Source: a virus. Taken from it: 26,749 nt of DNA. The stretch covers positions 1 through 26,749 of the IMG/VR virus record IMGVR_UViG_3300021138_001520; one strand, 5' to 3'. The translations under genes and the position numbers were made by a program. A model generated the notes under the pieces. It was not told the DNA's origin. It saw only the letters and a list, made by a program, of their open reading frames with translations, and made no database searches. Shown here piece after piece: positions 2,815 through 26,749 of the stretch (positions within the stretch are counted from its first letter, which is position 1; each line of letters begins with the position of its first letter).

Positions 2815-2970
2815 ATGAAATGTATAATATTTTGTATAAGTTGGATTGGTGTATTTGTAATTATGGATAACCATTTTCATATCGAAAACAATGTAGTTTA
2901 TGCAGTAGTCGGTTACTCATTTCATATATTCCAAGAGATTTTAGACCTTATATTTGACAAACCACATTAG
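2815..2970 (+). CDS. Small hydrophobic protein, unknown
   Basis: 51 aa, first gene after P2. AGGA is eight bases before this ATG. An overlapping ATG at 2809 in another frame gives only a 20-residue peptide and is rejected. The N-terminus (CIIFCISWIGVFVIM) is hydrophobic, and a second amphipathic stretch (VVYAVVGYSFHIFQEILDLIF) follows a polar turn. It may be a two-helix membrane protein. No family is recognised. Confidence 0.5.
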   Translation: MKCIIFCISWIGVFVIMDNHFHIENNVVYAVVGYSFHIFQEILDLIFDKPH

Positions 2971-2979
2971 GATTTGATT

Positions 2980-3222
2980 ATGAAATTGATATTAACACGA
3001 GAAGATGTACAATGTGCAATAAGAAATTATGTTAAGGAGAAAGTAATTCTTCCTGATAATGCTGAAATAACTGTTACTAAAGATAATGCTGTTGTAGAAT
3101 GGACATATGAAGTTTCGTCTAATAACTCACCACCTCAATTTACTCCTAGAGAATCATCTTATAGTGGTGGATCTATTCAAACTGGCGGTAGAAAAACTGA
3201 TATACATGGAAATACATTATGA
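2980..3222 (+). CDS. Conserved small phage protein
   Basis: 80 aa from the ATG at 2980, with TAGGA at good spacing. A TTG six bases earlier is in frame but has poorer spacing. The N-terminal half resembles a small family common in T4-like phages (MKLILTREDVQCAIRNYVKEK, then a beta-strand pair). The last 30 residues are Ser/Gly/Pro-rich (SSNNSPPQF, SSYSGGSIQTGGRK) and probably disordered. The function of this family is not known to me. It overlaps the next gene as ATGA. Confidence 0.65.
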   Translation: MKLILTREDVQCAIRNYVKEKVILPDNAEITVTKDNAVVEWTYEVSSNNSPPQFTPRESSYSGGSIQTGGRKTDIHGNTL

Positions 3223-3659
3223 CAATTACAACAATTAAAGAAGATATAAACGGTGATTTATATATCGATTTACCAGAAGATATTTTAATTAAAGCTGAAT
3301 TATCAGAAAATAATATTGTAGAGTTTATCGATAATAGTGATGGAGGTTTTACATTGAAAAGAGTTGAAAAAGAAGAAACTGAATTCGTATTAGTAGAATG
3401 TATACAACAATATAGAATGAGATATATGGTAGAAGTTCCTAAAGGTAAATCTGAATTGGCATTAGATACTGTAGTTATGGAAGAAGCTTCAGAGTTTTCT
3501 CAAAAAGATTTAGGTGAAACTATTGTATCGCATAGAGTAGTATCAAAAGAAGAATTATTAAATATTTGTGATAAAGATAATAATTATTGTAAAAATTGGT
3601 CTGATGATAAAAAACTTGATATTTTTGTAACAAAGGTGAATAGTGATGGCACAGCATAG
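3219..3659 (+). CDS. Phage protein with possible AbrB-like N-terminus
   Basis: 146 aa. Residues about 10-50 (LYIDLPEDILIKAELSENN, then a VEFIDNSDGGFTLKRV hairpin) have the look of a swapped-hairpin AbrB/MazE-type DNA-binding domain, whose usual pattern is strand, LP..I....L..GD.V and a hairpin. Residues about 56-140 form a second segment familiar from T4-like phages (YMVEVP, ALDTVVMEEASEFSQKDLGE, SHRVVSKEELLNICD), function unknown. There is no membrane segment. It overlaps neighbours at both ends. The AbrB resemblance is pattern-based and weak, so it may be a simple beta-rich domain. Confidence 0.6.
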   Translation: MTITTIKEDINGDLYIDLPEDILIKAELSENNIVEFIDNSDGGFTLKRVEKEETEFVLVECIQQYRMRYMVEVPKGKSELALDTVVMEEASEFSQKDLGETIVSHRVVSKEELLNICDKDNNYCKNWSDDKKLDIFVTKVNSDGTA

Positions 3660-4524
3660 AATAATTTCAAAAATGGATGAAAATGGGATAATTTGGTATT
3701 ATCCTCAAACAAAATCATGGGGGATTTGGTGGTATTATCACGAATCAAATTATCACCAAAACCACGTTTCATTTCTTGATATAGAAGATGCTTATTCATC
3801 ACTTGATAAGTTAAACAAATCGACCGCATACCATACAAAATTCCCAGAGTTTCTTAAAGAGTTATATAATATTCCAGAATCAATTACATATTCATATGTT
3901 AGGTGGTTCCATAAACATTCCGGAAAGGTTCTTACAACCACACAAACAATGGTTGATGATCTAAAATCGCACGGTTTTGATGGTGATATAATCCCATGGA
4001 CACGAGGGGTTGATAGAACTATTTTTAAAAGAACTGATAGAACATTTAGAAAACCAATCACACTATTAAGCGTTGGTAGAGTAAGTAAAGAAAAAGGGCT
4101 TGACGATTTTTGCGAACTACAGTTAAACGATTATCGTGTTGATAAGATAATTGTAGGTGATGGTCCTTATCTTAATGAATTGAAAAAGAAATATCCAGAT
4201 ATTACATTTGTCGGAAAGAAAACTGGATCAGAATTAGCATCATATTTTAACGAAGCTGATGTTTTTGTATTTACGAGCAAGACTGATACATTTGGTATCG
4301 TTATCATCGAAAGTCTAAGTGTAGGAACACCCGTTGCTGCTTATCCTGTTCCAGGACCGATTGATATTTTAGAACAAGGTGTTACAGGTTTTATGAATGA
4401 AAATCTTGAAGATGCTGTACAAGCTTGTTTATATTTAGATAGAAATAAAGTTTACGAAAATAGCAGTAGATGGACATGGGAAAATTGTTGGAAAATCTTT
4501 AAAGAGAACTTAATTAAAAAATGA
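3646..4524 (+). CDS. GT4-type glycosyltransferase, N-terminally truncated and fused
   Basis: 292 aa from ATG 3646; an in-frame GTG at 3643 is also possible. AAGGTG supports this start. From about residue 60 it aligns by pattern with GDP-mannose-dependent alpha-mannosyltransferases of family GT4: AYHTKFPEF, IPESITYSYVRWFH, WTRGVD..IF, then the C-terminal Rossmann domain LLSVGRVSKEKGLDDF, VGDGP, and FGIVIIESLSVGTPVAAY containing the conserved Glu. The canonical first ~90 residues of the N-terminal Rossmann domain are absent. In their place is a ~58-residue Trp/Tyr-rich unit (ENGIIWYYPQTKSWGIWWYY) that resembles a small stand-alone phage protein. Whether it is active is uncertain; a host surface-sugar or nucleic-acid sugar role is inferred. 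Confidence 0.85.
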   Translation: MAQHRIISKMDENGIIWYYPQTKSWGIWWYYHESNYHQNHVSFLDIEDAYSSLDKLNKSTAYHTKFPEFLKELYNIPESITYSYVRWFHKHSGKVLTTTQTMVDDLKSHGFDGDIIPWTRGVDRTIFKRTDRTFRKPITLLSVGRVSKEKGLDDFCELQLNDYRVDKIIVGDGPYLNELKKKYPDITFVGKKTGSELASYFNEADVFVFTSKTDTFGIVIIESLSVGTPVAAYPVPGPIDILEQGVTGFMNENLEDAVQACLYLDRNKVYENSSRWTWENCWKIFKENLIKK

Positions 4525-5141
4525 AAATATATACTTCAAATTTTAGAAATCATTGGCTGTCGCCCTATGTTATTTTAGAGAAGTTTTTCTTCTGGAGAAA
4601 GGGTTATGATATATACGACAAAGATCCACCAAAATGGTTACAAACTATTTGTGAATGGAATCAGAATTTTCTAGATTTTATTCACCCAAGAATTAATTAT
4701 ATAAAAATTGATCCTTGGGATGTTTGGTCTATGGACACGACGTTAGCTCCTATTATCCTACCGATGTTAAAACAATTGAAAGAGGGTAAACAAGGATCCC
4801 CTTTTGTTGATGATGAAGATGTTCCTTACCATTTAAAATCAATGAACGCTCCAAGAGTCGAATGTGAATGGGATACTGACGAAAATTTCCATAAACGATG
4901 GGAATGGGTTCTTGATGAAGAAATATTTGCTTTTCAATCTTTAATTACTGATTGGGAAGACCAGTTTAGAACTGGTGAACATGACTTAGATATAATAAAA
5001 GGTGAAAATGGTTTAAGTCAAATTATACGAGGTCCAAAAGATACATATAAATGCGATTATGATGGTATGAAAGAATATCAAAAACGTATTGATAATGGGT
5101 TTAGACTTTTTGGAAAATATTTTCAGCACCATTGGGATTGA
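4521..5141 (+). CDS. Conserved T4-like phage protein of unknown function
   Basis: 206 aa, overlapping the glycosyltransferase stop as ATGA. I recognise this family from T4-type phages: HWLSPYVILEKFFFWR near the start, VKIDxWDVWSMDTTLAPIILPMLKQL-type block at about 60-87, PFVDDEDVP at about 94-102, EWDTDENFHKRWEWVLDEEIFAF at about 116-138, and an invariant-looking end NGFRLFGKYFQHHWD. It is acidic and Trp-rich, with no signal peptide or membrane helix. No enzymatic motif is recognised. In other phages it is also a stand-alone gene of unknown role. Confidence 0.8.
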   Translation: MKIYTSNFRNHWLSPYVILEKFFFWRKGYDIYDKDPPKWLQTICEWNQNFLDFIHPRINYIKIDPWDVWSMDTTLAPIILPMLKQLKEGKQGSPFVDDEDVPYHLKSMNAPRVECEWDTDENFHKRWEWVLDEEIFAFQSLITDWEDQFRTGEHDLDIIKGENGLSQIIRGPKDTYKCDYDGMKEYQKRIDNGFRLFGKYFQHHWD

Positions 5142-5144
5142 TAA

Positions 5145-5276
5145 ATGAAACTTAAAAAAATTATTAAAAATATGTACAAAGCGTGTATAGAACACGATAC
5201 AGTGAAAGAGAAAAAACTTTGGTTTAAAACTTTAAGAAAATCTCTTAAAGGGAAAGATACTCATGGTATTAAATGA
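5145..5276 (+). CDS. Small basic protein, unknown
   Basis: 43 aa, very Lys-rich (MKLKKIIKNMYKAC, KEKKLWFKTLRKSLKGK), predicted helical and strongly basic. It starts three bases after the previous stop and overlaps the lipase start as ATGA, so it sits naturally in the operon. A nucleic-acid-binding or adaptor role is conceivable from charge alone. No family is assigned. Confidence 0.55.
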   Translation: MKLKKIIKNMYKACIEHDTVKEKKLWFKTLRKSLKGKDTHGIK

Positions 5277-6013
5277 TGTTAGAACATAAATCGACTGCAT
5301 CAATATCATTATTATTTGCTAAACTTTCAAATCTTGCATATAATGACAATCAATCTTTTGAAAAATTTGGCTATAAAAGTATTTGCATAAACAAAAATAA
5401 CAGTCAAGCATATTTTTTGTATAATGATACTGATGTAATTGTCGTTTGTAGAGGAACTAGACCAACAAAACTTGCAGATATAATTTCTGATATTAAATTT
5501 GCATTGGTACCAAGTAATTATGGTATTGGACACGTTCATGCTGGATTTAAAGAAAAGGTAAACAATATCTGGGGAGATCTTGGAGATTTATTTTTAAAAT
5601 ATGCGCCTAGTAGACGTGTTTGGTTAACTGGTCACAGTTTAGGTGCTGCTATGGCAACAATCATAGCAATTCGATGTCACAGATTTAAAGAATTACCAAA
5701 ACCTTTATTGTACACATTCGGCAGTCCGAAAGTTGGAGACAAAGAATATGTTCAATCATTAAATTCTTTAAACATTTTACATGTAAGATGGGTTAATAAT
5801 GCTGATATTATAACAAGGAATCCAGTATACCCATATTGGCATCATGGAATTTTAATGTATTTTGATCATGATGGAAATATTGCAAATATGACAGCTCTAC
5901 AAATAGCCAAAGACAGAATTAAAGGGTTTTTTGTTGGATTGTCTAAAGGGGAAGTAAATTTTTTTGTTAATCATGACATGACAAGATATATAAGAAATTT
6001 AGAAAAATTATGA
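5273..6013 (+). CDS. Class 3 lipase (alpha/beta hydrolase)
   Basis: 246 aa. It has the class 3 lipase architecture: VVCRGT at about 57-62 (oxyanion strand), HAGF at 89-92, the nucleophile elbow GHSLG with Ser122, LYTFGSPKVGD at about 146-156, Asp178 in NNADII, and the catalytic His in YWHHG (190-191). It should hydrolyse acyl esters such as phospholipids or triacylglycerols. No signal peptide is present, so it would act on the inner leaflet or cytosolic substrates unless released at lysis. It overlaps both neighbours as ATGA. Lying in the P2 operon, it appears early rather than lytic-late. Confidence 0.9.
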   Translation: MMLEHKSTASISLLFAKLSNLAYNDNQSFEKFGYKSICINKNNSQAYFLYNDTDVIVVCRGTRPTKLADIISDIKFALVPSNYGIGHVHAGFKEKVNNIWGDLGDLFLKYAPSRRVWLTGHSLGAAMATIIAIRCHRFKELPKPLLYTFGSPKVGDKEYVQSLNSLNILHVRWVNNADIITRNPVYPYWHHGILMYFDHDGNIANMTALQIAKDRIKGFFVGLSKGEVNFFVNHDMTRYIRNLEKL

Positions 6014-6819
6014 AATATCTAATTTTAATATTATTATTGTTATCAAATACAGTTTTTGCTGAAGGCGGACATAAAATATCTAGACCTGTTACAAATACTT
6101 TATCTATTGAAGACAATGACGAAGATAAAAATAGATTAGTCATAAATTATGAACAAGATTCTTATCAATATAACCAAACTCAATATGGCAACCCATCTAT
6201 AAACTATTCAACACATGGATGGGATTTTGGAATAATTTCTCAGAATATAAATGAATATTCAGGAAACCTCCAACAAGCTCAAAATTTTGAAAATGATACT
6301 TATATAAACATCAATAAAACTTTTAAACATAATTATGTTTTTGATAATTTAGATTGCGGTTCTGCTTGTAATTATTTTTCTGAAGTTCTTAATAATTCTT
6401 CCACAACATTTGGAACCCAAACTGGATTAGTTTTTCCAATGTCAAAAAGTTTGGATCCAAATAAAATTAATGCCTCTACATTACACGAATTTTATTTTAT
6501 TGATAATGATTATGAATTTATTAAAGATAGATTAGCATATCATATGGGAACATATTATGCCAATCAAGCATTGACAACAACGACTTCATATTGGGGTATG
6601 ATGTATGGTATGGAAGCAATCCTTTGGCCGAAACGATTAAAATTGAATTTAGATTTCTATGATGGAAGATCTAATGTTTCTGGAACGGTCATACAAGGAA
6701 CAGTTATGTTTAATAGACATTTAGAATTGTTTGCTGGTGTGGGTCTTGCAACACAAGGTTCTGGCAATTATGATTATGTCATTTCAGGAATAAATTTAAT
6801 TCAAATATTTAATAAGTAA
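6010..6819 (+). CDS. Exported, probably beta-rich outer-membrane protein
   Basis: 269 aa. Residues 1-17 are a classical signal peptide (MKYLILILLLLSNTVFA with cleavage likely after VFA). The mature part is polar and Tyr/Asn-rich, with alternating strands that become barrel-like near the end (YGMEAILWPKRLKLNLDFY, GTVIQGTVMF, LELFAGVGLATQG, YVISGINLIQIF). The last hydrophobic strand and terminal aromatic resemble outer-membrane barrels, although 269 residues would make a small barrel. One Cys pair (LDCGSACNYF) may form a disulfide. It overlaps the lipase gene. Function is unknown; superinfection exclusion or envelope alteration is an inference. Confidence 0.65.
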   Translation: MKYLILILLLLSNTVFAEGGHKISRPVTNTLSIEDNDEDKNRLVINYEQDSYQYNQTQYGNPSINYSTHGWDFGIISQNINEYSGNLQQAQNFENDTYININKTFKHNYVFDNLDCGSACNYFSEVLNNSSTTFGTQTGLVFPMSKSLDPNKINASTLHEFYFIDNDYEFIKDRLAYHMGTYYANQALTTTTSYWGMMYGMEAILWPKRLKLNLDFYDGRSNVSGTVIQGTVMFNRHLELFAGVGLATQGSGNYDYVISGINLIQIFNK

Positions 6820-11275: not shown

Positions 11276-11530
11276 ATGATAGTTTTAAATAAAAATGTTT
11301 TGATTTTAAAACAAAAACAAGAATATTCTGGATTGATTCAGGGTGTTGATACTGAAGAAAGTACCTATGCAAAAGTTATGGGACTTGGAAAACAAGTTGA
11401 AGAAGTTAAACTTGGTCAAACAGTAATTCTTGATTGGTCTAAAGCAAAAAAAGTAAAAAATGAACTTTTTATTGTTTTAGAAGAAGATATTGTAGCAATT
11501 CTAGAAGCTGAAGAATTGGAAGTAATTTAA
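11276..11530 (+). CDS. groES: GroES co-chaperonin, compact phage form
   Basis: 84 aa against 97 in E. coli GroES and 111 in T4 gp31. It caps the GroEL ring during protein folding. Recognisable parts are the first strand (LNKNVLILKQK), a mobile loop with SGLI at 18-21 in the place of the GGIVL contact, the core strand TYAKVMGLGKQVEEVKLGQTVIL, and the C-terminal FIVLEEDIVAILEAEE strand that matches the bacterial VLIMSESDILAIVE. The segment that forms the roof hairpin in E. coli (between GNG and VKVGD) is largely missing. It sits 68 bases before groEL with an AAGGAAA ribosome-binding site, and the pair is very likely co-transcribed. Confidence 0.88.
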   Translation: MIVLNKNVLILKQKQEYSGLIQGVDTEESTYAKVMGLGKQVEEVKLGQTVILDWSKAKKVKNELFIVLEEDIVAILEAEELEVI

Positions 11531-11532
11531 TC

Positions 11533-11557
11533 TCCAAATTGTCAAAAGAGATTTGGA
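11533..11557 (+). other. Hairpin between groES and groEL
   Basis: TCCAAAT at 11533-11539 pairs perfectly with ATTTGGA at 11551-11557 around an 11-base loop. No T-run follows, so it is not a classical terminator. It could set the groES/groEL ratio through RNA processing or stability; this is inference. Confidence 0.4.
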
Positions 11558-11586
11558 AGTAAGTTGTAACATTAGTTAAACTTTAA

Positions 11587-13209
<1,623 letters not shown>

Positions 13210-13267: not shown

Positions 13268-13993
13268 TTAATTTTCCAAATCGACAAGATTTTTTGGTAT
13301 CAAAGGCGAAATATTCAATCCAGTTGTTTTTTCTATAGATTTAACACTAACCAAATATTTTCTAAAATCTTTAAGATTAATACCTGTATTTGGAAATTTA
13401 TAGACTACGATTTTATTTATACTTGGCTGGATAACGACTTTATAAATGCTATCTGGAATTCCAACACCTTCCCCAATAGTTTTATATCCTTTATTATAGA
13501 TAGTTCCTGTTATTACATAAACATCATCTAAATGAGCTAAATCTCTAACATAACTTTCAAGATATGCCCATGTTCCACGATTTAGTGTTTTATTTTGTGG
13601 CATCATATTTGTCATTAAAAATGATTCATCCATAGCATCTTTGGAATATTCAAAATCTGCTGCTGGGGCAAGGTGACCTCTATCATAAACTGTTCCAGAA
13701 TAATCTGATAATTTTGATCTATAATTATAAGGAATTTCTATATCTTCATGAAAATTATTTTGCCGTTTTATTGTCCCAATTAAATTAGTTTTTGTTATAT
13801 GTTCTACAACATAAATTGGTGTTTTTGTTTTATATGAATAATTTACAGCATATCCATTTCTACACAGATATTGATTATCTCCATCTTTTATAATAGGGGC
13901 TCCCCATATTACCTTTTCTGGACATTTGTCATCGATAGGATTTCCTAAAGCCAATACAGGTAATAACAGGAATAATGTTAATAGTTTTTTCAT
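13268..13993 (-). CDS. Secreted DNA/RNA non-specific endonuclease (NUC1 family)
   Basis: 241 aa. Residues 1-17 are a signal peptide (KKLLTLFLLLPVLALG), so the enzyme is exported. The betabetaalpha-metal active site is complete: DRGH at 104-107 with His107 as base, and Asn129, Asn138 and Glu146, spaced exactly as N110, N119 and E127 of Serratia nuclease. It should cut both DNA and RNA with Mg2+. It overlaps the endolysin gene (ATG within the final codons) and shares its late promoter, so it appears at lysis time in the periplasm or outside the cell. Two Cys (about 24 and 44) in the N-terminal part could form a disulfide. Confidence 0.92.
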   Translation of the reverse strand: MKKLLTLFLLLPVLALGNPIDDKCPEKVIWGAPIIKDGDNQYLCRNGYAVNYSYKTKTPIYVVEHITKTNLIGTIKRQNNFHEDIEIPYNYRSKLSDYSGTVYDRGHLAPAADFEYSKDAMDESFLMTNMMPQNKTLNRGTWAYLESYVRDLAHLDDVYVITGTIYNKGYKTIGEGVGIPDSIYKVVIQPSINKIVVYKFPNTGINLKDFRKYLVSVKSIEKTTGLNISPLIPKNLVDLEN

Positions 13994-15653: not shown

Positions 15654-18290
15654 TTATCCTATTAAGTGACCAGTAAAACTGGCATAATTACCATCAGTGT
15701 ACATAGCACCTGGACCTGATTCAAATCTTATTGTAACGTAGTCATTTACGGCTAATTTTACATGACCTTCAGCAATTAAAGTCCACCAAACATTCGCAGC
15801 CTTTTGTGTGATAAATCGTAATCCACCATATCCTGCTCCATTTACATATATAGCAGTTCTGTATTCGCCAGCAGCTGCATTATTGGCCAACTGATGATAT
15901 CTAAAGAAATATGTACCCGCCACAGGTGCGGTAAATCTCCCTGTACCTAAATTTAAATTACTACCAATATCAAACACTGCCGAAGTATAAGTAATGTCTG
16001 TTCCTGAGGCATTTGAGGTGGTAGTGGTGGCATTAAAAGCAGGTTGATAAGGCATAGTAACCCTACCAGTATTATCTACTCTAAGTCTTTCGACAAAATC
16101 AGCAGAAATACTACCCGCTATACCAGCATTAGTTCCAGTATATAAAGTAAATACCCCACTAGTGTTTCTTATTGCCCAACCGCCTTGAGATGCTACTGTA
16201 TTTTTCCATCCAGAATCCCAATAAACACCACCACCAAGAAAAGAACCATCTGATCCCATTACTGGATACTTATTTCCAGATAAAGTAAGAGAGTTTGGAT
16301 AAGGACTACTCGTCCCAATCCCCACGTTGCCTGAAGCATCTTTATAAACCTGACCTGAACCTATGTTCAGTATGCCTGTACCGCCTGTAAGCGTACCTGT
16401 GTAAGATGTGTTGTTGGCAGTAACTGTACCAGTAAAAGATGGATCTGCTATTGTAGCTTTTCTTATTTCTAAATCTTGAATTGCAAGCTGTACAGTATTT
16501 TGTCCAGAAGAAATTCCAGAAAAAGGCGCAGCAAAAGAAACCGTACTAGATGTATATGGGTTATTAATATATCCATCAACTTGTAAGAATACTTTAGCAC
16601 CAGCAACACAACCATCATTTAATGTAACAGTAGTGCTATTTGTTTCAACATATTCTGTTGGAAACTGCCTAACACCATTTATATAAACACGCAATTGATT
16701 TGCTCCAGGAACATATGTAGGAGTTGTAAATGCTACTTGGTTTGCTGTTGCTGCGGTGACAGATGAAGTCGAGTTTATTGTTGTTCCAGGAGTTGATCCA
16801 CCTCCTGTTTGTGCTGCCCAATAAAAAGACCCTGCTCCGCCTGTTGTTAATACATAACCAGGAGTTGGTGATCCTGGATATATTTCAGTTCTAAGATCAG
16901 GAAGATTTGTTACACCTGTACCACCAGAAGATAGTCCAAGAGGAGTCCCTAATGTTAATGATGCTGAGGTCAATGCTCCAGAAAAGTATCCGGAACCATT
17001 TACAGCTAAAGTTCCATATGCGCTTGGATTAGAGTATCCAATCCCCACGTTGCCGGAGGAGTCGATGCGCATAGCAGTGGTCATAGCTACAACAGCTCCA
17101 GCCGTTGTAACGCCAGACACGTTGAAATCCCAACCGCCAACCCCAACTAATGAGCTCACTAACTCACCGCAATAATTTGTGGTTATTGCCCGTTTAGTGT
17201 ATGTCGAGTCATAATATAAATTAGCATTAAAACCTGTAGTGTTTGAGTTAGTCCAAACAGAACCTGTACCACACTGGAGTACTGTTGCGGCACTATTCCA
17301 CGCTGAATATTTAGCATTTAGAGTTAGGTTTCCCGCTACTGATAATTTAGTTGTTGGCGAACTCGTCCCAATTCCCACGTTGCCGGAGGAGTCGATGCGC
17401 ATGCGTTCGGTTAATGGACATGTAGTTCCAGTAGTTCCAGCAGGGGCATTGGAAAAAGTCCATTCTCCAACCCCATTAATATTAAACCCCATTTCTCCAG
17501 CGACGGTTGTGCTGTAATATGTTGGCACATAACTTGCGGCTCGATAAACATTTGACGCAAGAATAGTTGTGTTATTGTTGTTAAATAACCCTGCTCCAAT
17601 AACCTGAATAGCTTTTGACGGAGTTGCCCATGCTGATGGAACAGTACCAATCCCCACGTTGCCGGAGGAGTCGATACGCATGCGTTCTGTGCCACCACCA
17701 GCAGGATTTGTCCCGATAGCACTAGTTCCAAAAGTTAAATATGTTCCACCATTAGAAACACCAAAAGTTTCGGCTGCAAAAATGGACATACCACCATTCA
17801 TTCCTAAAAATCCGGATGTGCCATACCCACCAGCTAGAAATGACCCTAATCTATCACCAGTTAGAACAGCGGTCGGAAGAGCTATTGTTCCTCTAGCCCT
17901 ATAGTTTATGAAATTTGTCCCATCGCCATCATTATATTGGTCATAACGCCATCCAGAGTTAGTTTGATTTACTACATGTGCTGTGGCTGCAGGACTACTC
18001 GTCCCAATCCCCAAGTTAGTCAAACCAACAAGACTTGGAATTGTACTTCCTAATACAAGAGAAGAAGTTCCTAATATAATCGAATTATTAGCTAATGTAC
18101 TGCTGGACATTGACATCCATGTTGGAGCAACATTCGCTCCCATAGATACCAATATATGACCATATGATCCAGGATTACCATCAAGATTAAAAGTTCCATC
18201 TAAATTAAATGAGACATTACTTCCAAGTTGTAAATTGGAATTTATTGTTATTCCAGGAGTATAATCTATTTCATAATAACCTGTTGTCAT
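15654..18290 (-). CDS. Tail fibre/adhesin with GIGT repeats and C1q-like head
   Basis: 878 aa. Recognises or contacts the host surface. The shaft is built from repeats around RMRIDSSGNVGIGT, with clear copies in the N-terminal half and variants NLGIGTSSP and KDASGNVGIGTSSP. A Gly/Thr-rich linker follows (LGLSSGGTGVTNL, GYVLTTGGAGSFYWAA) as in other phage fibres. Residues about 746-878 form a C1q/TNF-like domain (GRFTAPVAGTYFFRYHQL, YRTAIYVNG, LAVNDYVTIRF), a trimeric beta-sandwich suited to receptor binding. No S74 intramolecular chaperone is seen. The start follows AGAGG. A near-consensus late promoter lies 24 bases upstream. Repeat DNA is more GC-rich than its surroundings, suggesting modular exchange. 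Confidence 0.92.
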   Translation of the reverse strand: MTTGYYEIDYTPGITINSNLQLGSNVSFNLDGTFNLDGNPGSYGHILVSMGANVAPTWMSMSSSTLANNSIILGTSSLVLGSTIPSLVGLTNLGIGTSSPAATAHVVNQTNSGWRYDQYNDGDGTNFINYRARGTIALPTAVLTGDRLGSFLAGGYGTSGFLGMNGGMSIFAAETFGVSNGGTYLTFGTSAIGTNPAGGGTERMRIDSSGNVGIGTVPSAWATPSKAIQVIGAGLFNNNNTTILASNVYRAASYVPTYYSTTVAGEMGFNINGVGEWTFSNAPAGTTGTTCPLTERMRIDSSGNVGIGTSSPTTKLSVAGNLTLNAKYSAWNSAATVLQCGTGSVWTNSNTTGFNANLYYDSTYTKRAITTNYCGELVSSLVGVGGWDFNVSGVTTAGAVVAMTTAMRIDSSGNVGIGYSNPSAYGTLAVNGSGYFSGALTSASLTLGTPLGLSSGGTGVTNLPDLRTEIYPGSPTPGYVLTTGGAGSFYWAAQTGGGSTPGTTINSTSSVTAATANQVAFTTPTYVPGANQLRVYINGVRQFPTEYVETNSTTVTLNDGCVAGAKVFLQVDGYINNPYTSSTVSFAAPFSGISSGQNTVQLAIQDLEIRKATIADPSFTGTVTANNTSYTGTLTGGTGILNIGSGQVYKDASGNVGIGTSSPYPNSLTLSGNKYPVMGSDGSFLGGGVYWDSGWKNTVASQGGWAIRNTSGVFTLYTGTNAGIAGSISADFVERLRVDNTGRVTMPYQPAFNATTTTSNASGTDITYTSAVFDIGSNLNLGTGRFTAPVAGTYFFRYHQLANNAAAGEYRTAIYVNGAGYGGLRFITQKAANVWWTLIAEGHVKLAVNDYVTIRFESGPGAMYTDGNYASFTGHLIG
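16313..16342 (-). repeat. Tail-fibre DNA repeat, divergent copy
   Basis: CCCAATCCCCACGTTGCC is shared with the three longer copies, followed by a diverged TGAAGCATC. It encodes DASGNVGIG. Confidence 0.7.
17038..17072 (-). repeat. Tail-fibre DNA repeat, copy 1
   Basis: Contains CCCCACGTTGCCGGAGGAG then TCGATGCGCAT, nearly identical to the copies near 17366 and 17646. It encodes MRIDSSGNVGIG. Confidence 0.85.
17366..17410 (-). repeat. Tail-fibre DNA repeat, copy 2
   Basis: Same core as copy 1 with one C-to-T change (ATTCCCACG), extended by GCGTTCGGT. It encodes ERMRIDSSGNVGIGT. Confidence 0.85.
17646..17690 (-). repeat. Tail-fibre DNA repeat, copy 3
   Basis: Same core with one G-to-A change (TCGATACGCAT) and extended by GCGTTCTGT. 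It encodes ERMRIDSSGNVGIGT. Confidence 0.85.
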
Positions 18291-18956: not shown

Positions 18957-19412
18957 ATGGCTGCAATGTCGGATTATTTAGAAAACAAAGTAGTGGACGC
19001 AATTTTTAGAGGACAACCGCTACCAACAATAAGCAACATTTGGGTTGCATTAACAACAACACCTGTGACAGATTCTAACACAGGCGCGAATATTACTGAA
19101 TTTGCAGCGACAGGCAGTTATGCAAGAGTACAATTAACATCAAATTTAAATAGTTGGATGGGAACAAATTATGCTCAAGGTGTTGCTTCTGTGGGTTCAA
19201 ATGGTACTGTTTCAAATAATGTTGCAATAACATTTCCTGCGCCTACAGGAAACTGGGGAATTGCTAATTCTTTCGTACTTCTTGATACTGCAACTGTAGG
19301 AACAGGAAATACATTATTTTATGGACAGCTAACACAAGCAAAAACTATAAACTCTGGTGATGCTGCTCCAACTTTCTCAGCTAACACTCTACAAATCCAA
19401 ATCGACAACTAA
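18957..19412 (+). CDS. Phage virion protein (SDYLENKVVDAIF family)
   Basis: 151 aa. I recognise a family widespread in phages: SDYLENKVVDAIFRGQP at the N-terminus, IWVALTTTPVTDSNTG at about 28-43, then GSYARVQL, NNVAITFPAPTGNWGIANSFVLLD at about 86-109, LFYGQLTQAKTINSGDAAPTF and a strand-rich ending. Members are annotated as structural or tail-associated beta-rich proteins of unclear exact location. TAGGAG precedes the ATG and two late elements lie upstream, in line with a virion protein. A strong terminator follows. Confidence 0.8.
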   Translation: MAAMSDYLENKVVDAIFRGQPLPTISNIWVALTTTPVTDSNTGANITEFAATGSYARVQLTSNLNSWMGTNYAQGVASVGSNGTVSNNVAITFPAPTGNWGIANSFVLLDTATVGTGNTLFYGQLTQAKTINSGDAAPTFSANTLQIQIDN

Positions 19413-19575: not shown

Positions 19576-20106
19576 TTAGTTATATGTTTGATTAATAAAA
19601 AATACTTGGGTTAATCTACTGTTTTCATTGGTATTACCAAAATATTTTGTAGATTTGTGAAATTCGGTTGCTTTATATAATACTAGTCGATTAAATACAT
19701 TACCAATAATATCCCTTGCAACATGAGGATGGCCTGTATAAATTGTAGTCCCAGCATCGATGGGCGCATCTGGTGTTAAGTATAAAATTCCTGCAACCTC
19801 TACATCATTATCCATATGTATCCAACTATCGCCATCAATCTCCTTAGTTAATTGAAAACTACTTCTAATCGATAAATTTTCAGTTAACCCAAATGTAGAT
19901 TGAGCGAGATATGAAATTCTAGATAATACCATATCAGCATATCCTATATCTAATTCATTAACATTAATAGTTCGTAATCCTGGCCAAGTATTTTCTCCAT
20001 TATTGATCTCACTAATTTCTTTTGATGAATAGTATTTTTGGTTTAATGCCCAAGTTCTAACAACGTTAGGATAAGGTAAAAAATTATCAAGTATTATTAA
20101 ATTCAT
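19576..20106 (-). CDS. 2OG-Fe(II) oxygenase-like protein
   Basis: 176 aa, last gene of the seven-gene operon; it overlaps the SGNH gene by 20 bases. The double-stranded beta-helix signature is visible: HMD with His97 and Asp99, the strand GILYLTPDAPIDAGTTIY (105-122), distal His150 in EFHKS, and Arg164 in SRLTQVFF, which should bind 2-oxoglutarate. LVLYKATEFHKST is typical of prolyl-4-hydroxylase-like small phage oxygenases. It would hydroxylate a protein side chain, sugar or lipid using Fe(II), O2 and 2-oxoglutarate. The substrate is unknown; the context of glycosyltransferases suggests a step that prepares or modifies a glycan or its attachment residue. Confidence 0.82.
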   Translation of the reverse strand: MNLIILDNFLPYPNVVRTWALNQKYYSSKEISEINNGENTWPGLRTINVNELDIGYADMVLSRISYLAQSTFGLTENLSIRSSFQLTKEIDGDSWIHMDNDVEVAGILYLTPDAPIDAGTTIYTGHPHVARDIIGNVFNRLVLYKATEFHKSTKYFGNTNENSRLTQVFFINQTYN

Positions 20107-20800
20107 ATCCCAACTCTTTTATTAATAAATCTGCTACAGTAATATGTTCTTCTTTGTTCCAATATTCTTTATCGGTTTTTTTACCTTTGATTCCTCTGGA
20201 AGCATTTAATAAATTGGTTCCTCTTAAAATATATCTTTCTTCTTCTATAAAGTATCCATTATCGCATTGGTCGCACCATACATCAAACGCTAACCATCTA
20301 CAACCAGATTTATTTAATACTTGTTGACAAGAAGTAAACATTACTTTAAACATTTCTTGATACCATATACTAGAATTAAATGGACCAAATGCTCCCCACA
20401 TAAATTGTTTGGCATATTGACAGGTAGTAGAATCCATTAGATGATATGACATTCGTTTTGTTCTAATACCATCATCATCTTCATTTAAATCCGTTATTCT
20501 ATAATTAATATCTGGATGATTTGATGTAATATCATAATCATCAGCAAGACCAAATTCAAACCTTGATGGAGCAGTCCAACCTATTAATACAATATCATCT
20601 TTTGTTAAAGGAATTGATTGTAATTTTCTAGCAATCCGCCAGTTACTTGAGGCAGGAAGAGAAAAATCGGTTAATGGCATTTCTAATTTTTGAGATATTA
20701 CATTAGGCCAAATTAATTCTTTTCTTTGTTCTTCGTTTATATCAGAATCAATAAAAAAGTTCCATCCCCAAGTAAAACTATCCCCAAATGTGTATATCAT
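20087..20800 (-). CDS. SGNH/GDSL-like hydrolase
   Basis: 237 aa, overlapping both neighbours (ATGA at the start). The N-terminus IYTFGDSFTWGW gives block I with the nucleophile Ser8. DFSLPASSNWRIARKL (about 45-60) resembles block III with Asn53. A late KEEHITVADLLIKEL has His219 in the place of the catalytic His, followed by a helix, as in block V; the usual DxxH Asp is not obvious (Glu217 or Glu218 precedes it). Family members remove or add O-acetyl and other acyl groups on glycans. There is no signal peptide, so it acts in the cytosol, perhaps on glycan precursors of the same operon. Phages also carry non-catalytic SGNH folds. Confidence 0.72.
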   Translation of the reverse strand: MIYTFGDSFTWGWNFFIDSDINEEQRKELIWPNVISQKLEMPLTDFSLPASSNWRIARKLQSIPLTKDDIVLIGWTAPSRFEFGLADDYDITSNHPDINYRITDLNEDDDGIRTKRMSYHLMDSTTCQYAKQFMWGAFGPFNSSIWYQEMFKVMFTSCQQVLNKSGCRWLAFDVWCDQCDNGYFIEEERYILRGTNLLNASRGIKGKKTDKEYWNKEEHITVADLLIKELGYEFNNT

Positions 20801-22125
20801 AAAATTTCTTTAAGTTCTAGTAATGGTTCATTCCAACTTCTTGGTTTTTGTTGGCGTAATAATGTAACGCTATCACCATACCATGGACTTTGTTTTGTTG
20901 AATGTGACCATGTATAATAGGCAGATATAGGAATGAATATAAAAGTTTTCTTTCCCATGCTTGCTGATGCATGTGCAACAGATGTACAAGTAGTAATAAC
21001 CAAATCTAAATTATTAATTATAGATAATGTATCATCAAAAGATTTCATATAGTCATGCATTGGAATTAATCCTGGAAAATCATCAATTTCTTCCAGACCA
21101 ACATCGCGTTGTAAACTATAAAATTCAGCATCTATATGTTTAACAGATTCATAGATTTCCTTTAATGGAACTGATCTATGCAAGTCATTATCATAATCTG
21201 GATTACCTTGCCATCTAATACCAATTTTCTTTTTATCAGATTTCATCCATTCGTATTTTGCATCATATGCATCAGATGATTTGATGTATGGTCCATACCA
21301 TAGATTAGTATAATCTAAATTTAATGAGGTTGGCATATTCATTGGATAAGTCCACAACAATCCTTCTTCCTGCGGGATATCCTTTCTATTGGTTATAGTC
21401 TTAAATCCATTACGATTAAATATCTCTGCTATATCCTTTCTTTCTGATAACCATATTGGATTCATACCAAAATCTGTAAGATACTTCATAAATCTCACAT
21501 TAATTATCTCATCACCAATACCAGCTTCTGCAAATAAAATTATAGTCTTTCCTGGTTGTATCCCACCTTCCCAATATTTGAATGGAAGTTTGGCTTTTTG
21601 CCAATAGTCTAATTTCTTTCCTTCTTCGAGGAATAAATTCAAACCTTTTTGAAATTCGTCTCTGTACAAGTAATATGTACCAAGATTAAACTTAATTTTA
21701 GTAGCATATTCTTCCGATAAATTCTTGGTGTTTAATAAAACATCATGTAGAATTTCCTCTGCTTTGTCCCTTTCATTCATCAAAAAATACGAATACGCTT
21801 TTTCTAATTTTGTATCGACATCATCAGGTATAGAAATTTCTGCTTGTTTGATATATTTTAATGCTAATTCGGGTTGATTTGCATGATTATACACATTAAT
21901 TAAATTAGCTCTTGCAGTCCAAATTTTAGTATTAACGTATGCTGTTATTAATGCTTTTTCTGAAAAATCTATTGCTTTATCATAAATTTTTTGTTTAAAA
22001 TAACATTTTGCAAGGTCGTCATATTCTTCAAATTTCCAAGCATGTTTGCTCATAGTATCAAGCAAACTTATTGCCTGACTTTTTTCGCCATGTGCAACTA
22101 GATAATTAACTAGATTTTCAAGCAT
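20797..22125 (-). CDS. TPR-repeat glycosyltransferase
   Basis: 442 aa. Residues 1 to about 170 are TPR-like helical hairpins (e.g. DDLAKCYFKQKIYDKAIDFSE at about 36-56, LALKYIKQAEI, AYSYFLMNERDKAEEIL). From about 190 a GT-B domain follows: IILFAEAGIGDEI at 195-207, GIRWQGNPDYDND, HRSVPLKEIYE, FYSLQRDVGLEEI, DTLSIINNLDLVITTCTSVAHASASMG and SPWYGDSVTLLRQ. This is the architecture of TPR-coupled sugar transferases related to heptosyltransferase (GT9) and O-GlcNAc-transferase-like proteins. The TPR part probably holds a protein acceptor. It overlaps both neighbours, and a tail of a second copy survives at 19471. Confidence 0.87.
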   Translation of the reverse strand: MLENLVNYLVAHGEKSQAISLLDTMSKHAWKFEEYDDLAKCYFKQKIYDKAIDFSEKALITAYVNTKIWTARANLINVYNHANQPELALKYIKQAEISIPDDVDTKLEKAYSYFLMNERDKAEEILHDVLLNTKNLSEEYATKIKFNLGTYYLYRDEFQKGLNLFLEEGKKLDYWQKAKLPFKYWEGGIQPGKTIILFAEAGIGDEIINVRFMKYLTDFGMNPIWLSERKDIAEIFNRNGFKTITNRKDIPQEEGLLWTYPMNMPTSLNLDYTNLWYGPYIKSSDAYDAKYEWMKSDKKKIGIRWQGNPDYDNDLHRSVPLKEIYESVKHIDAEFYSLQRDVGLEEIDDFPGLIPMHDYMKSFDDTLSIINNLDLVITTCTSVAHASASMGKKTFIFIPISAYYTWSHSTKQSPWYGDSVTLLRQQKPRSWNEPLLELKEIL

Positions 22126-22666
22126 CTTTTATTACCATTAATTTCATATGTGTTTCACCATACACATTATTAAAATTTCTTGCAACTTCAGCCCTTTCTT
22201 CTTCTGTCATTTGTGCAAAACGAGGTTTCCAATGATCATCGACAATAAAATCATATTCTATAATTTCAAAATCAACATTTAATGGTAAACCAAATCCACT
22301 TGAACTATTCCATTGATCAATATGCCATTTATTATATTTTTTACTAAACAATCTCATATTATCAACAGTAACAAATCTAACATGGGATGGATCACCATAC
22401 CAAACTTCGCTTCTGTGATGTGGAACTTGAATATCAATAATTGCTGTATCTTTACAAACTCTATAAATTTCTTTCATTAATTGAAAGAATCCAGGTCCAA
22501 TATGTTCAAGAATATGATACGCTCTTACTTCATCAATAGTATTATCCTCAAATGGTAATACATCTTCTCCTAATTTAACTAAGTAATCTGGATTTGTTAA
22601 TGGATCAGCATCCAAATTCAAAAATCCATCATAACGTTTAAATCCACCACCTATGTTAATTTTCAT
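22118..22666 (-). CDS. SAM-dependent methyltransferase (type 11-like)
   Basis: 182 aa from ATG 22666, supported by GGTGA; an in-frame GTG nine bases upstream is possible. Rossmann signatures are INIGGG at 3-8, LNLDADP at 16-22 with the acidic residue for the SAM ribose, GEDVLPFEDNTIDEVRAYHILEHI at about 34-57, and IIDIQVPHH. It has the pattern of small sugar- or lipid-modifying methyltransferases in surface-polysaccharide clusters. It overlaps neighbours on both sides (11 and 8 bases). A methyl cap on a glycan is the likely product, though this is inferred from context. Confidence 0.85.
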   Translation of the reverse strand: MKINIGGGFKRYDGFLNLDADPLTNPDYLVKLGEDVLPFEDNTIDEVRAYHILEHIGPGFFQLMKEIYRVCKDTAIIDIQVPHHRSEVWYGDPSHVRFVTVDNMRLFSKKYNKWHIDQWNSSSGFGLPLNVDFEIIEYDFIVDDHWKPRFAQMTEEERAEVARNFNNVYGETHMKLMVIKDA

Positions 22667-23027
22667 TTTTATCACCTATTATTATAAAATATGTATCGTT
22701 TTGTTTTACCCAAGTTTTAATAAAATCTAATGCTTGGTCTGAAATTGGTACACCCATTTCAATTACTTTTAAATATTGTTTATTATCTGCAATTTCTATA
22801 GAAATTAATACATTGCTTTCTGTGGGTTTCATCCAATCCGGAAATAATCCTTGTGACCAAGCACATTGATAATCAATACAATCTTTTGGTCGAGTATTAT
22901 ATATAGAACAATTCTTGTTACATAAAAACAAACAAGATTTGCCATTCCCAAAAGGATTGCCATATGAATTTGCAGTTAGCCAACCATCACAACATGCTGT
23001 ACATGACCCGCATTCTTTAAAACTCAT
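22656..23027 (-). CDS. CxxCxxCC cysteine-cluster protein (YkgJ-like)
   Basis: 123 aa. The N-terminal CGSCTACC at 6-13 is the CxxCxxCC signature of the YkgJ/PF03692 family, followed by Cys32, Cys36 and Cys40, then IYNTRPKDCIDYQC at about 42-55 with Cys50 and Cys55. The YNTRPxxC block is strongly typical. Family members bind Zn or an Fe-S cluster; a biochemical role is not established in general, although some are linked to methylation of flagellin-type proteins (FliB). Start overlaps the stop of the large glycosyltransferase as ATGA. Its presence inside a glycan operon is unusual. Confidence 0.85.
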   Translation of the reverse strand: MSFKECGSCTACCDGWLTANSYGNPFGNGKSCLFLCNKNCSIYNTRPKDCIDYQCAWSQGLFPDWMKPTESNVLISIEIADNKQYLKVIEMGVPISDQALDFIKTWVKQNDTYFIIIGDKNEN

Positions 23028-25780
23028 CTAGTTATTTTTCTATGCGAAAATATATCTAAAAACAAGTTAAATTCGTCATCAGATTTTGCTACAATTTCTA
23101 TAGTATTGCCTAACTCGTTTTGAAATTGTCTTAATTCTAAATTACCAACTTCGTTTGCATACAATGTTTTATATAGTCCTTGTATAAAATTTGCACCATT
23201 TTTTAATAACCAAGGATCTTCTGTTGGAATTAACTTATTATACCATAAATCAAAGATCTCGTCAAGTTTTGATAAATCGCCATGTTTTTGAGTAATTGCG
23301 CATAATAAACCCATATAATAATATTGTGCCATAGTAAAATCTGGTCTTTGTCTATAATTTTTAATAATCAAATCATAGTAACGATCTTCAATCTTTTCAT
23401 TTCTTACTGGTCTATTAATTGTTCCATAATGAGCAATGAATGCAATATCTTGGAATAAACATTTACTGATCCAACCTTCATCTGTTGTTGGATATTCGTG
23501 AACTACCCCAGTAAAATATATTCCATTATTTTTAAACAATCTATCGTGATATGGTGGATCATATTCATTCTTATCTCCATATACAATACAATGTTTTTGA
23601 CTGACTAATATACTATTGTAATAGTCAGAAGTTATAAATTGTGATAATAATTTACCATTAATCAATTCTTCATCAGCATCCATCCAAAGTATATAATCGC
23701 CAGTACATTTTTCTATGCCATAATTTCTAGCCGCTGAAAAGTTACCTAATCCATCATCTTCTTCCCATTTATAATCATAAATTTTATCAGTATATTTTGA
23801 TGCTATTCTTTTGGTATCATCAGTAGAACCAGTATCAACAATAATTATTTCATCAACTAAATTATAGATTGATTTTAAACATCTTGCTAAGTTATTTTCT
23901 TCATTCTTAACAATCATACTAGCAGATATCTTTTTATATGGACGAGTTTTGATAAACTTATCTTGGTAATCAGGTTTGTGAAATGTTGGTATGTTATCAG
24001 GTTCTACTGTAAAATGATATACCCAATGATAGATCGGTTCTCCTCTTCTGCCTTGTTGTTTATCTTTAATTGCTTTAATAGTTAAATCTGTTTCTTTAAA
24101 TATGGTTTTAATATCGTTTAATTCGAAATGGTGCAAATGTTCTATATGTTTATTGTCTTTATCTAAATTTTGCCATGGACCAGCTGGAGTAGTAAAAATA
24201 AAAGTACATTTCTTTTTAACCAAAGTCATTAATTTGTTCAAAAATGTTATAGTATCTTCAATGTGTTCCATCAATTCAGCAACAATAACAACATTTGCAT
24301 CTAACTCATATTGATCAATATTTAATACATTATCACGAATAGTAATGATTTGATTGTACTGTGGTTTATATGTTTTTTCAAAATTATCTAATGCATCTTG
24401 ACAATAATCATATGCATACAAATTGTTTATATACAACGAATATTTTTCTAATAATGGTAATGAAACACACCCATCATAAGAACCTAAGTCTAATACATTT
24501 AAATTGTAATTATGTTCTTTGACAATATACTTTATTTCATCAACAATAATATTGATTCTTTCACAGGAATTTCTACCACCATCAATATATTTGTGATCTT
24601 CAATATTATCAAAATTACAAATGTCAATCAAATCATAATATTTTTTATCTCCAGACAGTTCTTTTGCTGCTACTAAATCAGAATAAATTTCTAATTGATC
24701 TAAAATCGCTTGTTTGTTATTATTACTTCTTTCAATAAACATAGAATCAATTTTATCATTCCAAGTTCTAGCAACATTACTCCAATCATAAGGTTGTATT
24801 AATTCTTTTGCTTTTAAAACTTCTTGTTCGTAAGTTTTGTCTTGATATTTGTCAAACAATGCTATAAATTCTTGATCATAATTATCACCATGCGGAATTT
24901 TTGTATCAGATTTAACAGTTTCTGCTAATGCATAATCATCAGTTGTCATAACTAAACAACCAGATGCTTGCGCTTCCATAGCATTGATGCATGATGTTTC
25001 ACCTTTGCAATCTGTCGGATAAATCATATAAGCACAGCGATTCAATAGAGAATAATAATCTTTTTTACTTAATGTTCCATTATCTATTATATTTTTTGAT
25101 GATTTTAATAATTCATTTGACTTTTTGAATACTTCATAAAACATATCACCTGATTGATAATTTGCCATTGCATTTTGATATCCACAAATATGTAATTTTG
25201 CTTCTGGATTTTTATCAACTATTTTTGGCCAAATATCTTCTAAAAGTTTAACTAGTCCACGTTCAAATCTTGCAGAATATATATAGTTGTTTTTCTTTTG
25301 TTCAAATGGTATTGTATCAGAAACTAAACTTTTATCAAATCCATTGGATGTTACCCAAAATGCATCATCTTCTAAATTATACGAATTTTTAAAGAATTGT
25401 TTATGATATTCTGATAGACAAAATATTTTATCAGCAACCGATATAGAAAGTTCTGGATTATCAATAAAAATATCATGTGTCCACAAAATATTTAATTTTG
25501 AATCCAGTGGTTTTGCTAAAAATTCGGTATATCGGGATACAATACAAACATCAGTCTGACATTTTTCATCATTATTAAATTGAACATAACTTCTATAATC
25601 AACACCATCATATATTCCAGGTTTATCACAATCACAATAAACTGTAACATCGTTTCCTAAATATGAGAGTTCTCTAGCCATATAAATCATTGCTGATTCC
25701 GAACCACCTAGAGATTTTTCAATTAAAGAATTGCCGTTAAATTGTAGCCCAAGGGTTACAAATGATATAGTCTTTTTCAT
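23024..25780 (-). CDS. Three-module GT4 - methyltransferase - GT2 protein
   Basis: 918 aa from ATG 25780, which has GGAGG at ideal spacing; a TTG six bases earlier is rejected. Residue numbers below are from this TTG frame and are two higher. Module 1 (about 5-350) is a GT-B retaining transferase: SLGGSESAMIYMARELSYLG at 25-44, and GETSCINAMEAQASG with the Glu263/Glu271 pair. Module 2 (about 425-590) is a SAM methyltransferase: VLDLGSYDGC at 431-440, AYDYCQDALDNFE, AELMEHIED. Module 3 (about 617-830) is a GT-A transferase: SASMIVKNEENNLARCLKSI, IIIVDTGSTDDT at 647-658, WMDADEEL with DxD at 703-705. One polypeptide thus carries two sugar transfers and a methyl transfer. It acts in the cytosol. 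Confidence 0.92.
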   Translation of the reverse strand: MKKTISFVTLGLQFNGNSLIEKSLGGSESAMIYMARELSYLGNDVTVYCDCDKPGIYDGVDYRSYVQFNNDEKCQTDVCIVSRYTEFLAKPLDSKLNILWTHDIFIDNPELSISVADKIFCLSEYHKQFFKNSYNLEDDAFWVTSNGFDKSLVSDTIPFEQKKNNYIYSARFERGLVKLLEDIWPKIVDKNPEAKLHICGYQNAMANYQSGDMFYEVFKKSNELLKSSKNIIDNGTLSKKDYYSLLNRCAYMIYPTDCKGETSCINAMEAQASGCLVMTTDDYALAETVKSDTKIPHGDNYDQEFIALFDKYQDKTYEQEVLKAKELIQPYDWSNVARTWNDKIDSMFIERSNNNKQAILDQLEIYSDLVAAKELSGDKKYYDLIDICNFDNIEDHKYIDGGRNSCERINIIVDEIKYIVKEHNYNLNVLDLGSYDGCVSLPLLEKYSLYINNLYAYDYCQDALDNFEKTYKPQYNQIITIRDNVLNIDQYELDANVVIVAELMEHIEDTITFLNKLMTLVKKKCTFIFTTPAGPWQNLDKDNKHIEHLHHFELNDIKTIFKETDLTIKAIKDKQQGRRGEPIYHWVYHFTVEPDNIPTFHKPDYQDKFIKTRPYKKISASMIVKNEENNLARCLKSIYNLVDEIIIVDTGSTDDTKRIASKYTDKIYDYKWEEDDGLGNFSAARNYGIEKCTGDYILWMDADEELINGKLLSQFITSDYYNSILVSQKHCIVYGDKNEYDPPYHDRLFKNNGIYFTGVVHEYPTTDEGWISKCLFQDIAFIAHYGTINRPVRNEKIEDRYYDLIIKNYRQRPDFTMAQYYYMGLLCAITQKHGDLSKLDEIFDLWYNKLIPTEDPWLLKNGANFIQGLYKTLYANEVGNLELRQFQNELGNTIEIVAKSDDEFNLFLDIFSHRKITR

Positions 25781-26553
25781 CGCCAAACCTCCATATCACT
25801 AAATTTATGTAATATATCTGGCGGTAAAATTGTAGGACGTTCTATCCATTCTATTTTCTTTCTTGTTGTATGCAATCCTTTTACATTAACATCATCATCA
25901 AATTCGTCATATGATGTTTCAACATCATTAAAATCGTGTTGATAATATGGTTGTCCAATAAAATTATAAATTGCTGTCATCATACCAGCAGGGTTTTTAC
26001 AAAGTTGTTCATATTCAACTAACATGATCATATTCTTCTCTGCTGATGTTATAGCTTGTTTTAATCCAAGATATGCAAACCCAACTGTAGAATCTTCTCT
26101 CATTAGATAATCACATCTTGAATATACTGTTGATGCATAATCATCAGGAATCATTAAATTTTTATCGTATGGATTTTTTCTATATAAATTTTCAAAAGAA
26201 TCAAGAACCCAATTTAAATCTCTTACACAAATAATAAGTTTTGTATATGGGTATAAATCTTTTAAAAATGGAGTAAGTAATGTCCAACCGCGATTTGTGT
26301 CAAAAAATACTTCTTTAGATGGATCATCATAATAATTATCAAAAATGCCATGAATTATATTTTTTCTTTTTTCTGCTGGACATTGATGTCTATACCCAGA
26401 CATAGCAGAAGATTGTTCAATTATTGCTCTAGTAAATCTAGCAAGAGGACCAGATATTGATGCTTGAAATTTTGGATTTTGGTTTAGAATAGTCGATAAA
26501 AGGGTTGTCCCAGAACGTGGTAACCCAGAAATGAAGTAGTATTGTTTGTTCAT
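25777..26553 (-). CDS. PAPS-dependent sulfotransferase
   Basis: 258 aa, first gene of the operon behind a late promoter. FISGLPRSGTTLLSTIL at 7-23 is the 5'-phosphosulfate loop of sulfotransferases. LIICVRDLNWVLDSFENLYR (about 105-124) supplies the Arg/Ser residues that contact the 3'-phosphate in the family. MLVEYEQLCKNPAGMMTAIYNFIG is typical of the C-terminal half. It transfers sulfate from PAPS to a hydroxyl or amine of a sugar or a tyrosine. There is no signal peptide or TM anchor, so cytosolic. It overlaps the three-module gene as ATGA. Sulfation of the glycan made by the downstream genes is the most economical inference. Confidence 0.9.
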   Translation of the reverse strand: MNKQYYFISGLPRSGTTLLSTILNQNPKFQASISGPLARFTRAIIEQSSAMSGYRHQCPAEKRKNIIHGIFDNYYDDPSKEVFFDTNRGWTLLTPFLKDLYPYTKLIICVRDLNWVLDSFENLYRKNPYDKNLMIPDDYASTVYSRCDYLMREDSTVGFAYLGLKQAITSAEKNMIMLVEYEQLCKNPAGMMTAIYNFIGQPYYQHDFNDVETSYDEFDDDVNVKGLHTTRKKIEWIERPTILPPDILHKFSDMEVWR

Positions 26554-26580
26554 ATAAATATCTCATGTTATAGTTTAAGA

Positions 26581-26588
26581 TATTTATA
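26581..26588 (-). promoter_or_regulatory. T4-type late promoter of the seven-gene operon
   Basis: The - strand reads TATAAATAT 28 bases upstream of the sulfotransferase ATG, giving a leader of about 20 bases. It lies between the RCC1-repeat gene and the operon. No AGTGC-type early promoter is found in this gap. Confidence 0.65.
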
Positions 26589-26613
26589 TGCGTAGTTAAT
26601 GGGTGTAAATATT

Positions 26614-26749
26614 TTACATATCGTCTTTTATTGCTGCGGTATGAAGAGTTCCACCAGCAACTTGTTTCCAATTTGTTCCACCAGCAATGGTCTGAACTGG
26701 AGAACTTTTATTTGTAACGGTACTATCGCCAAGCCCTCCATTACCATTA
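26614..26749 (-). CDS. RCC1-repeat protein, C-terminal fragment (partial)
   Basis: The reading frame enters from the right edge and stops at 26614 after 44 complete codons. The residues NGNGGLGDSTVTNKSSPVQ and TIAGGTNWKQVAGGT then LHTAAIKDD are one full RCC1-type repeat (pattern NxxGQLGDGTT..SSPVQ..GGTNWKQVA.G..HT.AIK.DG). Such repeats form beta-propeller blades; in phage genomes they occur in large virion adhesins or fibres. The frame is AT-rich like the rest. The gene lies upstream of the sulfotransferase in the same direction. Its length and number of blades lie outside the window. Confidence 0.8.
   Translation of the reverse strand, partial: NGNGGLGDSTVTNKSSPVQTIAGGTNWKQVAGGTLHTAAIKDDM

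Follow-up and report, generated by a model that had tools for sequence, protein, structure and literature searches.

What is modified by the products of seven overlapping, enzyme-like phage genes, and does the RCC1-repeat gene beside them bear on the answer? The question is raised by IMG/VR virus record IMGVR_UViG_3300021138_001520, positions 1 to 26,749 (the whole of this 26,749-nucleotide stretch is termed the window here), in which seven uninterrupted minus-strand open reading frames run head to tail across 19576-26553 with overlaps, in order of transcription, of 4, 4, 11, 8, 4 and 20 nt and no junction without one (Table 1). They encode a sulfotransferase (SULF), a fusion of two glycosyltransferase (GT) domains with a methyltransferase (GMG), a CX2CX2CC protein (CxxC), a methyltransferase (MT), a TPR-containing glycosyltransferase (TPRGT), an SGNH/GDSL-like protein and a 2-oxoglutarate (2OG)-Fe(II) oxygenase-like protein. 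The answer favored here, with a probability of about two in three, is that the seven genes form a late-expressed modification cassette acting in the cytoplasm on appendage proteins of the phage's own virion, chiefly the RCC1 propellers encoded immediately upstream. A first-pass annotation, made from the letters alone, had described such an operon lying between an RCC1-repeat gene and fibre genes, and the intact reading frames, the overlap at every junction and the identity of these neighbors were all verified. The RCC1 gene, taken there as a mere boundary, proved instead to be the most constant non-enzyme partner of the cassette, and its product is the best acceptor candidate.

The association with RCC1 carries most of the argument. 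An RCC1 gene lies within ~10 kb of TPRGT, in the tail-fibre region, in 74 of 89 non-redundant loci, compared with none of 80 control loci, the latter being the surroundings of another glycosyltransferase from the same window (Fisher 5e-33, a value that ignores shared ancestry). TPRGT and RCC1 are on the same strand in 73 of the 74, there are 35 different core gene orders, and in 11 non-redundant loci the genes are interleaved as RCC1-TPRGT-CxxC-RCC1-SULF. RCC1 is also retained in a marine single-cell virus whose TPRGT identity is just 25%, and the combination of shuffled order and divergence to this level argues against simple inheritance of one block. In profile scans of viral contigs, 62 of the 80 TPRGT loci had a neighboring RCC1 gene and 57 of the 74 RCC1 loci had TPRGT; where RCC1 loci have room downstream, all 50 arrays of at least two RCC1 genes are accompanied by TPRGT. 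Among 50,697 phage records, TPRGT is found in 5 and RCC1 in 51. Four of the five TPRGT records have RCC1 and rank as the top four RCC1 matches (two entries of S-SRM01, BUCT-ZZ01 and the marine single-cell virus). Cultured phages, S-SRM01 and BUCT-ZZ01, are thereby among the carriers of cassette genes, the order in S-SRM01, among other genes, being tail fibre, RCC1, RCC1, TPRGT, CxxC, RCC1, SULF.

The array that precedes the operon is seen in L013, a longer contig from the same virus (all compared proteins 100% identical): S74 long tail fibre, RCC1, DUF4376 tail-fibre gene, RCC1, 161-aa gene and a third RCC1 gene, the last being the one of which the window holds a fragment. The RCC1 proteins of this contig match PHROG 4219. 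Three PHROG 4219 RCC1 proteins were detected by mass spectrometry in W70 virions (PMC11370258) and one RCC1-like protein, also by mass spectrometry, in GAP32 virions (PMC5259590).

The seven-family combination had seemed unique. The full set recurs, however, both in L013 and in one relative, L009, where all seven genes are in identical order at 66-93% identity, and the conserved core is widespread, with ~90 non-redundant phage loci. In relatives this core consists of SULF, MT and TPRGT, and CxxC is often added; the other three genes are variable, GMG being present in 7 related contigs and the 2OG and SGNH genes in a minority of cassettes. Fusions are a further variation: GT-MT in L231 and BUCT-ZZ01, and SULF-GT in L185 (7354-9231), where the TPR part is replaced and RCC1 genes flank the fusion; neither the L185 nor the L231 fusion has a TPR part. 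TPRGT is nearly absent from bacteria and archaea, a single scan of 84,980 species genomes giving just two weak matches of 22-28%, and a bacterial origin for it was rejected. A broader proposal can be put forward tentatively, its chances being rather below even, namely that aquatic T4-type phages possess a nearly virus-restricted pathway in which TPR-directed, GT9-type O-glycosylation of RCC1 propellers is joined to sulfation, on sugar or tyrosine, of viral structural protein. A literature search linking RCC1, phage and sulfotransferase found nothing relevant, and the S-SRM01 paper has no mention of mass spectrometry, RCC1 or sulfotransferase.

Several observations weigh against RCC1 as the acceptor. 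Single-RCC1 loci have TPRGT in none of 12 cases, or none of 9 when limited to those with room downstream, and RCC1 loci were retrieved by a profile made from linked examples, which favors linked RCC1 types. In PBECO4, ten RCC1 genes stand in tandem with no adjoining enzymes; together with the bias of the retrieval profile, this limits to the present lineage the rule that an array implies TPRGT. RCC1 is missing from the surroundings of many distant SULF homologues, and also from 15 non-redundant TPRGT loci, several of them truncated. No clear acceptor motif emerged from the RCC1 repeats, in which enzyme-linked and unlinked proteins do not differ clearly (threonine 14.9% vs 11.1%, with a small comparison set). 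The cassettes of L062-L064, with no RCC1, are instead bordered by genes for collagen-like or lectin-like fibres, so that the acceptors may be fibre proteins more widely. (In L064, at 2352-6098, a collagen-like fibre gene, PF01391 3.5e-103, is upstream of a TPRGT-SULF pair.) From this, and from the S74 fibre upstream of the RCC1 array, comes the best-surviving alternative, in which the acceptor is some other product of the tail-fibre module (S74, DUF4376 or collagen-like) and RCC1 is no more than a common neighbor in an adhesion island. It is judged unlikely, in view of the interleaving of enzyme genes with RCC1 genes and the persistence of RCC1 beside the most diverged TPRGT noted above.

Modification of RCC1 and fibre proteins gains from the architecture of TPRGT. 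Its N-terminus is a TPR domain (PF14559, 7e-8). The GT half is invisible to Pfam, though a GT-B fold appears in the predicted structure (predicted local distance difference test, pLDDT, 94), and over ~230-240 residues this domain has VIA Z values of 17.1 to 3tov (GT9), 16.2 to WaaF and 15.6 to TibC. A glycine-rich loop in the N-lobe, GIGD205E, contains an Asp, D205, invariant in 42 of 42 sequences; its putative pairing with D110 of TibC is by motif context. The four-Cys iron finger and N-terminal beta-barrel of TibC and BAHT are lacking, TPRGT having two Cys and a helical TPR N-terminus. With the whole chain of the model, Foldseek places SPINDLY (SPY)/OGT at the top (E near 2e-8), at a query TM-score of only ~0.3.

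For the other enzymes, most of the family names proposed at first were upheld by domain searches and invariant motifs, as was that of TPRGT by its model. SULF matches PF13469 at 2.7e-17, above the Pfam cut-off, and has both the GLPR.G loop for 5'-phosphosulfate binding (5'-PSB) and the Arg...Ser pair for 3'-phosphate binding (3'-PB), with G10-R13, G15, T17, R111 and S119 invariant in 18 sequences. Its closest solved sequence relatives are the protein-tyrosine sulfotransferases TPST1/2 (E 2.5e-11), and the description 'sulfated glycan' is consequently unproven. The catalytic Glu of TPST is placed after the loop that binds 3'-phosphoadenosine 5'-phosphosulfate (PAPS). The TPST GEETR segment aligns to non-conserved, Glu-less residues of the phage SULF profile, so the TPST Glu has no counterpart there and, despite the best matches being TPSTs, tyrosine sulfation by SULF is only possible. 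GMG has matches to PF00534 (4e-10), PF13489 (7e-10) and PF00535 (1e-22), and MT matches PF08241 above cut-off. CxxC falls below the Pfam gathering score for PF03692 (11.1 vs 23 bits). It matches phrog_9155 at 1e-19, and has an exact CX2CX2CC with C6, C9, C12 and C13 invariant among 8 invariant Cys in the alignment of relatives; this type of Cys cluster is common to it and FliB, the flagellin lysine methylase (PMC8598068).

The two remaining proteins are accessory. The SGNH-like protein has GDS(F/Y) and H219 (in EEH) invariant in 6 close relatives, with no significant family match, and it is on the invariant GDS motif and His that its putative SGNH identity rests. The libraries label the last gene only as DUF6445 or phage 'minor coat protein'. 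Its HxD...H...R residues (H97, D99, H150 and R164) are nevertheless invariant in 11 relatives, and phage relatives are annotated as 2OG-Fe(II) oxygenase or prolyl 4-hydroxylase. In the window virus and L034 its product is missing ~30 residues between the metal-binding motifs relative to nine other aligned relatives. A solved-structure profile search with the 2OG and CxxC proteins gave no matches. One shared product, the 'sulfated, methylated, hydroxylated glycan' of the first-pass annotation, is not supported by a set in which SULF is nearest TPSTs, CxxC resembles a protein methylase motif and the 2OG and SGNH genes are in a minority of cassettes.

Late expression, also proposed at the outset, is supported by the position of a T4-type late element, TATAAATA, at 26588-26581 on the minus strand, directly upstream of SULF, and by a T4-type portal in many relatives (10 of 16 records examined). 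The frequency of TATAAATA was rejected as evidence for late promoters, its count in the window being that of chance (8 vs 7.5 expected). Position alone is informative: among relatives the element is enriched just upstream of the cassette (18/74 vs 98/1907, p 8e-8). A perfect 13-bp inverted repeat at 26551..26590 on the same strand, with arms at 26551-26563 and 26578-26590, flanks TATAAATA and extends into the SULF start codon. The folding prediction gives the hairpin a z of -5.8, and the probability that the SULF start is unpaired as 0.00 in read-through RNA vs 0.64 in RNA initiated at the late element; the hairpin is thus predicted to mask the start codon in the former and not in the latter. 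In T4 genes e, soc and 49 a late element is within a hairpin that covers the start codon, a design for translational occlusion, and the hairpin in the window resembles it. L009 retains the hairpin with different arm sequences, and L010 and L012 with minor changes. As a family-wide switch an occluding hairpin was rejected, since it is strong in the closest relatives alone and gone in more distant ones.

On the proposal that virion appendages are modified, the TPR domain would dock the RCC1 or fibre protein during its synthesis and the GT9-like domain would add a first sugar on Ser or Thr, possibly host-derived heptose from ADP-heptose. GMG, in the window virus, would extend and methylate the sugar chain; MT would methylate and SULF sulfate, either the sugar or the protein (on Tyr). 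CxxC, possibly an Fe-S protein methylase, might add a further modification, the SGNH protein might trim acyl or acetyl groups and the 2OG oxygenase might hydroxylate. The probable benefit would be a tuning or masking of host-contact surfaces at the fibre tip. The claim that no gene for nucleoside diphosphate (NDP)-sugar synthesis is present holds within the fragment and does not extend beyond it, the record being just 26.7 kb.

Since the synthesis of lipopolysaccharide (LPS) typically involves GT4, GT2 and GT9-like domains, and phages carry O-antigen conversion genes (PHROG matches), the enzymes could instead remodel the host surface, altering LPS or capsule for superinfection exclusion or receptor change. 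This is highly improbable: none of the seven proteins has a hydrophobic or membrane segment, there is no flippase or anchor, the late-type position adjoins virion genes, and the core is tied to RCC1 while another GT of the same phage has no such linkage. The preference for virion fibres over host LPS as target, already voiced in the first-pass annotation, is supported by the same linkage and the same lack of membrane segments. Phage glycosyltransferases often target DNA (PMC12619734), but DNA hypermodification or small-molecule synthesis is scarcely credible for an operon with no nucleotide-modifying gene, and in which a TPR domain and a link to fibres would be hard to explain if DNA were the substrate.

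Table 1. Positions of the cassette genes and of the adjacent RCC1 and fibre genes in the window
Feature	Position	Strand	Product and remarks
SULF	25777..26553	-	PAPS sulfotransferase, 258 aa; core cassette gene
GMG	23024..25780	-	GT4, methyltransferase and GT2 in a single protein, 918 aa from corrected start (ATG 25780); accessory
CxxC	22656..23027	-	CX2CX2CC protein, 123 aa; frequent cassette gene
MT	22118..22666	-	S-adenosylmethionine (SAM) methyltransferase, 182 aa from corrected start (ATG 22666); core cassette gene
TPRGT	20797..22125	-	N-terminal TPR and GT-B (GT9-like) glycosyltransferase, 442 aa; core cassette gene
SGNH/GDSL-like protein	20087..20800	-	237 aa; accessory
2OG-Fe(II) oxygenase-like protein (DUF6445)	19576..20106	-	176 aa; accessory
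RCC1-repeat (beta-propeller) gene	26614..26749	-	3' end only, the rest cut by the contig edge
Convergent fibre gene	18957..19412	+	Pfam Gp80 fibre protein (PF23140 2e-30)
Tail fibre	15654..18290	-	C-terminal C1q domain (PF00386 3e-10); PHROG tail fibre matches

Elsewhere in the window, a second cluster at 3643-6819 on the plus strand comprises genes for a GT4 glycosyltransferase, a phrog_11543 protein, a class 3 lipase and an uncharacterized protein; none of the RCC1 cassette families occurs in the loci that surround its GT. A GroES and GroEL pair is at 11276-13209; in the phage collection GroEL is best matched (at most 71.5% identity) by chromosome-like bacterial records, which suggests acquisition from a proteobacterial host. 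At 13268-13993 a gene for a DNA/RNA non-specific endonuclease overlaps an endolysin gene.

Phage 'RCC1' proteins have hitherto been labelled DNA-condensation proteins, and for those of phAPEC6 a role in DNA ordering, not a fibre role, was proposed (PMC7247149). The tail-fibre context and dedicated enzymes point instead to surface propellers that are decorated and have a part in host contact or shielding. W70, GAP32, phAPEC6 and PBECO4 all have RCC1 repeat proteins, often in tandem and in W70 and GAP32 virion-associated, PBECO4 differing in having no modification enzymes beside its array. Mycobacteriophages glycosylate the C-termini of capsid and tail-tube proteins (Freeman et al. 2023, cited in PMC12619734), a phage-encoded activity on virion proteins such as is proposed here; in that part of PMC12619734 which deals with them, no RCC1, sulfotransferase or TPR-GT is described. 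SULF has PAPS-binding motifs in common with TPST1/2 and, unlike them, neither conservation of the Glu-containing segment nor a membrane anchor. If the proposal is correct, sulfation becomes a further phage virion modification.

With TPRGT the parallels are to protein glycosylation. SPINDLY and OGT have the same layout of TPR plus GT-B in a protein O-glycosyltransferase, although structural similarity is low, as above, and the GT domain of TPRGT is nearer to GT9. TibC and BAHT, GT9-like autotransporter heptosyltransferases that modify adhesins (PMC4358343), share the catalytic fold, and the conserved catalytic Asp is in TPRGT also; there is no iron finger, and a TPR domain stands where TibC has its beta-barrel. 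FlmG, the flagellin O-glycosyltransferase of Caulobacter, is soluble and cytoplasmic and binds its acceptor through its TPR (PMC7591256). Compared by layout, it too joins an N-terminal TPR to a C-terminal GT-B domain, and this analogy supports the earlier suggestion that the TPR domain of TPRGT would be the acceptor-holding part. TPRGT differs in being phage-encoded, in a GT domain nearest to GT9 and TibC, in its probable RCC1 acceptor and in its coupling to a sulfotransferase and a methyltransferase; if so, phages have appendage-modification systems of their own, analogous to the flagellin and adhesin glycosylation of bacteria.

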